Part shown: positions 43,404-45,044 of the stretch, piece after piece
How positions within the stretch are numbered: position 1 is the first letter of the stretch
Layout of the letters: the number at the start of each line of letters is the position of its first letter
NCBI RefSeq assembly: GCF_003614435.1
Contig: NZ_CP025546.1
Location: 2,728,001-2,792,000, forward strand
Direction of reading: 5' to 3'
DNA: 64,000 bases
From: Mycobacterium paragordonae
Lineage (GTDB): Bacteria; Actinomycetota; Actinomycetes; Mycobacteriales; Mycobacteriaceae
The notes under the pieces: generated by a model
Told to the model about the DNA's origin: nothing
Seen by the model: the letters and a program-made list of their open reading frames with translations, nothing else
The model's database searches: none
Made by a program: the position numbers and the translations under genes

Positions 43404-45044
43404 CTAGTCGGCGGGCCCAATCTCCTTGTGCCCGTTGGCGCTTGGTTCACGAAGGGCGACCAGGGCGCGCTGCTCGCTGGCGTGGGTCGCTTCCAGCAGT
43501 GCCGCCGCTTCGGCCGGCGAGTCAGCGAACAGGAAGCTGCCCTGGCCGGGGCGCCCGCCCAGACCGAGCTTGTTCATCCGCTTGGGAACCGCCGTGCCCT
43601 GGTACTCCAGCGCGATCGGATGCCCGGCCTCGTCGACCCCACCCAGCGGTTGGTGTATTTCGACGTAGGCGCCGTGCGGCAGGCGTCTGATGATGCCCGT
43701 TTCGACGCCGTGTTCGAGCACCGCGCGGTCGCTGCGCTGCAGGCTGATGCACCAGCGGTAGGCGATGAAGTAGACGAACGGCGGCAGCACCACCATCCCG
43801 ATCCGGCCGATCCACGTCGTCGCATTCAACGAGATGTGGAACTGGTAGGCGATGATGTCGTTGAACGACGAGAAGGTCAGCACGATGTAGAACGCAATGG
43901 CCATGGCGCCGATCGAGGTGCGCACCGGGACGTCGCGGGGGCGCTGTAACAGGTTGTGATGCGCGTTGTCACCGGTGAAGCGCTTCTCCAGAAATGGATA
44001 GACGACGAGGCCGCCGAGCATGACCCCCATCAGGACTGCGACGGCGACGGCGGCCGGAACGGTGTAGTGCCCGATGTAGATCTCCCAGGCCGGCCACAGT
44101 CGTACCAGGCCGTCGGTCCACATCATGTAGAAGTCCGGCTGTGAGCCCGCCGCGACCTGAGAAGGCTTGTAGGGACCCAGGTTCCAGATCGGGTTGATCT
44201 GCAGCAGCCCGCCCATCAGGCCCAGGACGCCGACGATGGCGGCGAAGAAGGCACCGGATTTGATGGCGAACACCGGCATCACCCGCACGCCGACGACGTT
44301 GTGCTCGGTGCGGCGGGGTCCGGGAAACTGGGTGTGCTTCTGGAACCACACCAGTGCCAGGTGCACACCGATCAGCGCCAGCATGATGCCGGGGAAAACC
44401 AGGATGTGGATGGCGTACAGCCGCGGGATCAGGATGTTGCCGGGGAAGTCCCCGCCGAACAATCCCCAGTGCAGCCAGGTGCCGATCACCGGGATTCCCA
44501 ACGTGATTGACGACAATGCGGCCCGCAGACCGGTGCCAGAGAGCAGGTCGTCGGGCAGTGAGTAGCCGAAGAATCCCTCGAACATGGCCAGAATCAGCAG
44601 CAGCGACCCGACCACCCAGTTGGCCTCCCGAGGCCGGCGGAACGCGCCGGTGAAGAAGATGCGCGCCATGTGCACCATGATCGAGGCGGCGAACATCAAT
44701 GCGGCCCAGTGGTGGACCTGGCGCACGAACAGCCCGCCCCGCACCTCGAAGGAAATGTTCAGCGCCGTCTCGTAGGCCCGCGACATCTCGACTCCCCGCA
44801 GCGGCTGATAGACGCCGTTGTAGGTGACCTCGCTCATCGACGGGTCGAAGAACAGCGTCAGGTACACGCCGGTCAGCAGCAGCACGATGAAGCTGTACAG
44901 CGCGATCTCGCCGAGCAGAAACGACCAGTGCGTCGGGAAGACCTTGTTCAGCTGGCGCCGCAGGCCCGCGGACGGGTGGTAGCGGGTGTCGATCTCGTCA
45001 GCCTGGCGGGCCAGCACCGCGCCGGCATCGATTTTCGGACTCAT
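43404..45044 (-). CDS. Solitary cytochrome b subunit of bc1 complex (second QcrB)
   Basis: This 546-residue QcrB paralogue is the membrane cytochrome b of the actinobacterial bcc complex that oxidises menaquinol. The full fold is intact: heme-ligand His residues in VHHWAALMFAASIMVHMARIF and WLHWGLFGGDF...LYAIHILVFPGIM, and the Qo motif WPAWE. The C-terminal mycobacterial extension is also present. No qcrA or qcrC is adjacent, and the normal qcrCAB operon lies elsewhere in mycobacteria (Rv2194-Rv2196). The quinol-site segment reads WTDGLVRLWPAWEIYIGHYT, where I recall WTEGLARIWPPWEFYFWHHT in M. tuberculosis QcrB. It is divergent from a TetR gene across a 27-bp palindrome. Confidence 0.92.
   Translation of the reverse strand: MSPKIDAGAVLARQADEIDTRYHPSAGLRRQLNKVFPTHWSFLLGEIALYSFIVLLLTGVYLTLFFDPSMSEVTYNGVYQPLRGVEMSRAYETALNISFEVRGGLFVRQVHHWAALMFAASIMVHMARIFFTGAFRRPREANWVVGSLLLILAMFEGFFGYSLPDDLLSGTGLRAALSSITLGIPVIGTWLHWGLFGGDFPGNILIPRLYAIHILVFPGIMLALIGVHLALVWFQKHTQFPGPRRTEHNVVGVRVMPVFAIKSGAFFAAIVGVLGLMGGLLQINPIWNLGPYKPSQVAAGSQPDFYMMWTDGLVRLWPAWEIYIGHYTVPAAVAVAVLMGVMLGGLVVYPFLEKRFTGDNAHHNLLQRPRDVPVRTSIGAMAIAFYIVLTFSSFNDIIAYQFHISLNATTWIGRIGMVVLPPFVYFIAYRWCISLQRSDRAVLEHGVETGIIRRLPHGAYVEIHQPLGGVDEAGHPIALEYQGTAVPKRMNKLGLGGRPGQGSFLFADSPAEAAALLEATHASEQRALVALREPSANGHKEIGPAD

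Follow-up and report, generated by a model that had tools for sequence, protein, structure and literature searches.

The 64,000-nucleotide stretch of Mycobacterium paragordonae DNA analyzed here (the window; contig NZ_CP025546.1, positions 2,728,001 to 2,792,000) carries a solitary gene, termed qcrB2, for a bc1 (bcc) complex cytochrome b of the actinobacterial type. As judged from the sequences, qcrB2 is an intact gene under constraint that shares its regulator and its operator with genes at many other loci, and its membership in the regulon of this TetR-family regulator is well supported. Since the regulator elsewhere faces genes for rhodopsins or genes resembling those for mycosporine-like amino acids, we favor, with about even confidence, the reading in which QcrB2 serves as an alternative subunit of bc1 and belongs to a light/ultraviolet (UV) regulon.

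The reading frame of qcrB2 starts with ATG and is uninterrupted by stops over 546 aa; AGAAGG can be read off the sequence 7 nt upstream of this ATG at 45044. An alternative ATG 45 bp earlier, at 45089, would give 561 aa, but would overlap the edge of the operator described below. The protein, encoded on the minus strand, scores 754.4 bits against the NCBIfam model NF050120 (bc1_QcrB_actin; cut-off 500). The original prediction of a complete and isolated 546-residue QcrB, with the moxR operon on one side and fabG1-inhA on the other, is confirmed. The ratio of nonsynonymous to synonymous substitution rates (dN/dS; Nei-Gojobori, 10 pairs, five sister species) is 0.062-0.105 for qcrB2 versus 0.036-0.081 for the operon gene, which is strong purifying selection and not the ratio near 1 expected upon loss of constraint. 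Together with the open frame these values rule out that qcrB2 is a pseudogene. Of the 282 positions that are invariant across 58 operon copies, 277 are kept in qcrB2, and His 111, 112, 125, 213 and 228 (M. tuberculosis numbering throughout, offset +3) are present in 28/28 rows of the solitary clade introduced below and in 58/58 operon rows. We take H111/H112, H125, H213 and H228 to be the two pairs of haem-ligand histidines, whose retention had been claimed before and is borne out. The operon-invariant His473 in the C-terminal tail is Ala in qcrB2. The 13 TetR-linked rows have lost 2 to 9 of the operon-invariant positions each, compared to a median of 0 and a maximum of 5 for the operon rows (leave-one-out). 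On this sequence evidence the TetR-linked QcrB clade is somewhat looser than the housekeeping gene, yet far from decay.

The genome contains three QcrB genes (C1:2771407, the window copy; C1:4000599; C1:4813043), and what had been predicted as the second cytochrome b is actually one of three. The copy at C1:4000599 (L043) comes after COX3, QcrC and QcrA and is the copy of the ctaE-qcrCAB operon; qcrB2 is 82% identical to it, corresponding to a difference of 18% over the whole protein. A search of the genome with the QcrA protein gave one match, for QcrC both matches to the cytochrome c family PF13442 fall in one open frame, and neither QcrA nor QcrC was found within 19 kb of the sister locus L045. 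The predicted absence of an adjoining qcrA and qcrC therefore holds, with single matches elsewhere in the genome, and on these matches we reject the idea that qcrB2 is the remnant of a whole bc1 operon. With only one QcrA and one QcrC match, QcrB2, if working in a bc1 complex, must share these partners. The third QcrB (L044:9041-10606, that is C1:4813043-4814599) is likewise solitary; its neighbors are an acpS-like gene and a frame of 2526 residues, presumably acpS and the type-I fatty acid synthase gene (fas). This fas-site QcrB has Pro-Asp at the positions of Thr313-Glu314 and a different palindrome upstream, GAATGAATTCATT, which is common to the sister genome. In our survey of 394 genomes of the genus, with at most three candidates scored per genome, at least 86 match QcrB at two or more places, counting fragments.

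A tree of 93 QcrB rows, made with a quick method and supports of the approximate likelihood-ratio test (SH-aLRT) without bootstrap, unites 28 solitary copies in one clade (support 96), and none of the 58 operon copies falls inside. Within this clade 13 copies including qcrB2 form a subclade (support 99), and all 13, which were chosen by score and not by neighbor, adjoin the TetR gene or share one operon facing it. Of the other clade members, ten share a MOSC/alcohol-dehydrogenase site, three have a DUF808 gene as neighbor and two belong to neither group; the fas-site QcrB falls outside. The tree thus agrees with the suspicion of an old paralogue and rules out a recent duplication of the operon gene of the same genome. 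The rows were drawn from genomes and places among the matches listed, so that weaker second copies are under-sampled; duplicates (L011 and loci repeating an included gene) and fragments (G013, G035 and other partial matches) were dropped beforehand, and the operon copies of G005 (L029) and G118 (L200) are also missing. Solitary copies with genes for a MOSC-domain protein, an alcohol dehydrogenase and a glycogen phosphorylase in their vicinity (L047, L050, L145, L147-L149, L154-L157) have no TetR operator, and those beside the DUF808 gene (L146, L152, L159) have the half-site-like TTGGTGAACTA upstream. At L049 (G026) a tandem qcrB-qcrB comes straight after qcrA; the pair has a support of 100 in the tree, which is a within-operon duplication.

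The intergenic region shared by qcrB2 and the divergent tetR contains a near-perfect palindrome (Table 1) 43 bp from the start of qcrB2 and 89 bp from the start of tetR. It is the sole mismatch-free match to the consensus pattern TAnTGnAC-N5-GTnCAnTA in the 7.2-Mb genome. A site with at least 9/12 fixed letters is present in 48 of the 51 regions separating the TetR from its neighbor (the G330 locus being counted twice among the 51), the exceptions being three cases with a tetratricopeptide repeat (TPR) gene and an aminotransferase gene. From the 48 sites we built an operator profile, whose training set includes the window site and a 33.1-bit site at the mycosporine-like cluster of the same genome. 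In the window the palindrome scores best with 39.5 bits and the next non-overlapping site reaches 3.3 bits. With the profile a site of 12 bits or more is found at 55/59 named TetR loci, among them all 14 loci of Rhodococcus, Rhodococcoides or Williamsia (12.7 to 32.8 bits), a group outside the training set. No site reaches this score in 643,568 bases from other, mostly coding, loci. A chance palindrome is ruled out by the genome pattern scan and the specificity of the profile.

Relatives of the TetR of a sister genome were found at 70 places in 55/394 genomes of the genus (E-value no higher than 1e-40; scoring of eight candidates in each genome), and 40 TetR stretches were then grouped by their neighbors. 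A gene for a rhodopsin (135.9 bits against the bacterial rhodopsin family PF01036) is one kind of divergent neighbor; it comes with a gene for Blh, a retinal-forming enzyme of the beta-carotene dioxygenase type (128.9 bits against TIGR03753, cut-off 95.25), followed at some loci by the oxidase subunit CtaD (NF050116, above cut-off) or by QcrB. The other kind is a cluster of haloacid dehalogenase (HAD) phosphatase, dehydroquinate-synthase-like, methyltransferase-like, ATP-grasp and D-Ala-D-Ala-ligase-like genes, whose gene order and family resemblance suggest synthesis of mycosporine-like amino acids. An alignment scan with the TetR gave 59 loci in named records: 37 with the mycosporine-like cluster, 12 with rhodopsin (Blh being present or absent), 5 with QcrB alone and 5 others, of which three have TPR and aminotransferase genes and two are ended by contig ends. 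The rhodopsin loci divide into three with rhodopsin-Blh-QcrB (a metagenome-assembled genome (MAG), M. bohemicum and M. helveticum; L243, L244, L253), two with rhodopsin-Blh-CtaD (M. chlorophenolicum and M. chubuense; L245, L246) and seven other rhodopsin loci; the loci of Rhodococcus, Rhodococcoides and Williamsia are mycosporine-like in 13 cases and carry rhodopsin in one. Since the genomes of the 59 loci largely overlap with the earlier TetR set, they put names to this evidence and do not double it.

The rhodopsin-Blh-QcrB operons of M. bohemicum, M. helveticum and the MAG occupy the same moxR-fabG1 site as qcrB2, and the arrangement in the window is therefore the same locus without rhodopsin and Blh. 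At the TetR-linked QcrB genes of G118 and G184 the site does not adjoin QcrB itself, since rhodopsin and Blh lie in between; it precedes the rhodopsin there. Upstream of rhodopsins that are not linked to the TetR the operator was absent, both for those at least 77% identical (0/6 usable upstream regions; G340, G178, G228, G089, G146, G212) and for more distant ones (0/4; G377, G385, G352 and the second copy of G158); G269 and G077 were left out of this scoring. The TetR-linked rhodopsin of G158 has a site of 12.8 bits only. Some frames at the rhodopsin loci are interrupted, namely CtaD in M. chlorophenolicum and M. chubuense (L102, L104) and Blh in M. bohemicum (L096), and the rhodopsins of G304 and G089 contain a stop codon; draft errors are possible for all of these. 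One rhodopsin-TetR contig (L254) is titled as a Bifidobacterium breve MAG and is probably a mislabelled or contaminated bin.

Further sites are found in the same genome. The mycosporine-like cluster faces a second TetR and has sites of 33.1 and 13.9 bits. A DPRP-type photolyase gene (PF04244; L142) has a site of 24.5 bits, outside the training set, about 50-75 bp before its assumed start. Among G000, G006, G070 and G140 this site scores 23-24.5 bits and 19 of its 21 columns are invariant versus 59/160 around it; in G221 it is decayed to 8.5 bits. Our photolyase survey (match in 39/60 genomes, 30 loci examined) gave otherwise one site, of 17.1 bits at -239 in G363. G363 apart, the site is confined to the M. 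gordonae group, and we therefore regard the photolyase as a regulon member special to this group. When two mismatches to the pattern were allowed, the controls gave 8 and 8 matches versus 6 and 6 for the real pattern, and such matches therefore count only with other evidence. Among these two-mismatch matches are the photolyase site and an operator-like site of 23.3 bits (L140:1499-1523, C1 about 29,814) found where two serine/threonine kinase genes meet, which we take to be pknA and pknB. A further one, at L144, lies beside a zinc-binding-protein-like gene and resembles a zinc-regulator site.

The TetR of the window has an intact DNA-binding half with the TetR_N helix-turn-helix and the segment YSKTTLY. 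It is identical to the sister-genome TetR at 155 of 172 aligned residues and diverges after about residue 159, where the frame runs into a 24-bp repeat and beyond and the conserved C-terminal end is missing. This disruption could also be a matter of the assembly. Because of the lost C-terminus, repression by the window TetR may be lost here. The original prediction of a private TetR making qcrB2 inducible is thus plausible as to TetR control, given the near-perfect operator, and doubtful as to inducibility in this genome. The second TetR, at the mycosporine-like cluster, is complete and 59% identical to the sister TetR; its recognition segment YSKTTVY is nearly identical to YSKTTLY, and it might act on both operators. 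A fold search with the TetR gave general TetR matches and no hint of a ligand.

The features of the locus are collected in Table 1. The gene on the right flank, whose match to a nuclease domain is weak, presumably occupies the place of Rv1482c, and the gene after it is presumably fabG1 (mabA).

Table 1. Features around qcrB2 (positions in the window)
Feature	Position	Strand	Remarks
MoxR gene, left of qcrB2	40160-41320		
DUF58 gene, moxR operon	41023-42264		
VWA-domain gene, last of the moxR operon, left flank	42194..43300	plus	NF010238, 649.6 bits (cut-off 432); PF13519
qcrB2, solitary gene for the bc1 (bcc) cytochrome b, actinobacterial type	43404..45044	minus	546 aa
TetR-type operator ATTAATGTACTACTAGTTCATTAAT	45088..45112		25-bp palindrome, 11/12 pairs matched; 39.5 bits
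Divergent TetR-family regulator gene (tetR)	45202..45855	plus	PF00440, 33.5 bits (cut-off 24)
24-bp tandem repeat in the 3' part of the tetR frame	45679..45734		2.3 copies; inverted arm 45766-45792
Conserved gene, right flank, overlapping the end of the tetR frame	45798..46868	minus	PF18741, 23.3 bits, below cut-off of 38.2
fabG1 (mabA), presumed name, first in fabG1-inhA	46808..47575	plus	253/255 identical to the sister-genome copy
inhA, next after fabG1	47611-48420		

From the shared regulator and operator we infer the following course of events. The TetR encoded by the divergent gene would bind the palindrome and repress qcrB2, and light, UV or a product thereof would relieve the repression so that QcrB2 is made. 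QcrB2 would then replace the operon QcrB beside QcrA and QcrC in the single bcc complex, and quinol oxidation could continue under photostress. The benefit might lie in swapping out a photodamaged haem/quinone subunit or in coping with a light-damaged menaquinone pool; mycobacterial menaquinone is sensitive to near-UV light. In species with rhodopsin, QcrB2 may in addition fit the respiratory chain to the light-made proton gradient. More tentatively, and with less confidence than in the role of QcrB2, one could imagine an undescribed light/UV regulon in mycobacteria and their kin, in which one TetR clade with its operator would govern sunscreen, photolyase, rhodopsin and the replacement of respiratory subunits (QcrB2, and CtaD in some). 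The original prediction had been right about extra qcrB copies, constraint and the age of the paralogue, and had missed this pointer to light and UV given by the regulator family.

Several observations weigh against a role of QcrB2 in a light/UV regulon. Rhodopsin was matched in only three of the 13 genomes with QcrB2 (G118, G184, G363). Rhodopsin and TetR do co-occur (TetR in 17/24 rhodopsin genomes versus 55/394 overall), a point in favor of the light link, but Fisher's test, used to assess this, ignores relatedness. The mycosporine-like synthase-like and ligase-like proteins score under the NCBIfam cut-offs, and the cluster of the window's own genome shows no methyltransferase; at the other clusters the methyltransferase is a putative one. 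The operator is lacking at 15/15 other solitary QcrBs of the 28-row clade and at the fas-site copy of the same genome (-10.9 bits), and being solitary therefore does not by itself make a QcrB a light trait. The TetRs of L122-L124 (on the same contigs as L257, L258 and L255), three members of the clade, face other genes without operator; here the TPR gene and the aminotransferase lie beside the TetR without a rhodopsin, as if an operon had been lost. The remaining 24/24 photolyase loci, genomes with the TetR included, show no site above the highest shuffle. Finally, the window TetR is without the C-terminal block GVVACPSLMFGT...VDIVL, which is common to the other 15 aligned rows with few changes.

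QcrB2 could instead be a resistant target, less sensitive to natural bc1 inhibitors and induced by them via the TetR, as the original prediction had it; TetRs with divergent targets are generally known to sense small toxic molecules in many cases. PMC8616580 describes QcrB as the protein targeted by Q203 and TB47, with a contact between residue 317 and Q203 and hydrogen bonds to this inhibitor from residues 313 and 314; PMC7719681 reports Ala317Thr with resistance to another inhibitor series, and PMC6739496 gives resistance positions that include 175, 178, 315 and 338. Position 317 is Val in 13/13 TetR-linked copies versus Ala in 51/58 operon copies, and 317 Val, 337 Ala, 396 Ser and 397 Phe set the 13 copies apart from nearly all operon copies. 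However, only four of the 17 contact positions given in PMC8616580 differ from the operon copy of the same genome (Y161F, M187I, E314D, A317V), close to the 18% difference over the whole protein, and Thr313 is kept, as are the resistance positions 175, 176, 178, 195, 315 and 338; at position 305 the alignment has Gln where that paper names Gly305, and this position is unsure. The contrast in the quinol pocket that had been given in the original prediction is right against the operon copy of the same genome (WTEGLARIWPPWEFYFWHHT versus WTDGLVRLWPAWEIYIGHYT), but its residues are not unique to the solitary gene, Asp314 being found in 10/58 operon and 33/35 solitary copies and GHYT also in 2/58 operon rows. 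The other neighbors of the regulator are rhodopsin and mycosporine-like genes. We consider an inducible resistant target unlikely, and the contact positions speak neither for nor against a tolerance of QcrB2 to bc1 inhibitors as such.

If QcrB2 were a partner of phototrophy only, it would tune the chain to the proton gradient of the rhodopsin and be a leftover in the M. gordonae group after rhodopsin loss. The rhodopsin-Blh-QcrB operons of M. bohemicum, M. helveticum and the MAG and the rhodopsin-Blh-CtaD operons of M. chlorophenolicum and M. chubuense would fit well, but the CtaD frames of the latter two are interrupted, and no rhodopsin was matched in the window genome and four sisters with a mycobacterial rhodopsin query, although all 5 species have retained both qcrB2 and the operator. 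(A rhodopsin family search of the own genome also found nothing, but gave none in control genomes either, and the mycobacterial query is the better test.) This restriction to phototrophy seems improbable to us. Possibly QcrB2 is a spare copy without a role in light, a general isoform for a condition such as low oxygen or low pH, one branch of which came to lie next to a regulator of photoprotection by accident. This would agree with the 15/28 clade members located elsewhere without operator and with the frequency of multiple QcrB match places in the genus. However, 13/13 subclade rows keep the link to the TetR, which makes a chance capture less likely, and species without rhodopsin have retained the operator. 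We therefore judge a spare copy to be rather unlikely and prefer QcrB2 as a light/UV-regulated alternative subunit.

If the link to light is true, a heterotroph would replace a central part of its respiratory chain in sunlight, and the regulator and its operator would allow direct tests of how these bacteria respond to light. Independently of light, QcrB, the target of Q203 and TB47, is matched at two or more places in at least 86 of the 394 sampled genomes (fragments counted), and to our knowledge no study has taken into account that a mycobacterium can carry several QcrBs. No published account of the solitary QcrB or of the TetR regulon was found in our search, from whose reach subscription journals were mostly excluded.

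Ms6564, a TetR of M. smegmatis, has a role in DNA damage. Its structure (PDB 4jl3) is among the nearest solved TetRs, with 45.9 bits by profile, TM 0.70 and about 25% identity. Proteorhodopsin genes are known in M. chlorophenolicum, M. chubuense and M. rufum (PMC4524478), and we take the loci of that paper to be L245/L246 of the same type strains of the first two species; as far as its text was available it treats the rhodopsin gene, synteny and nearby tRNA genes, with 0 occurrences of 'cytochrome' and no operator described. A rhodopsin of Gloeobacter that acts on a transcription factor is the subject of PMC11217422. QcrB of the M. tuberculosis bcc-aa3 complex (PDB 7e1v) is like qcrB2, aligned over 2-534 with 1036 bits, and the five core histidines and the PDFY segment are kept. 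In contrast to that protein, qcrB2 is solitary and has Phe161, Ile187, Asp314, Val317, Ala337, Ser396 and Phe397, and Ala instead of His at 473.

In cyanobacteria, spare and light-regulated copies of psbA (D1), the quinone-site subunit, swap into a fixed complex. Protein, complex and regulator differ from those considered here and the comparison is one of analogy only, but the mechanism proposed for QcrB2 is alike. The regulon would then be a respiratory counterpart of the light-induced D1 exchange, perhaps answering the near-UV sensitivity of menaquinone.
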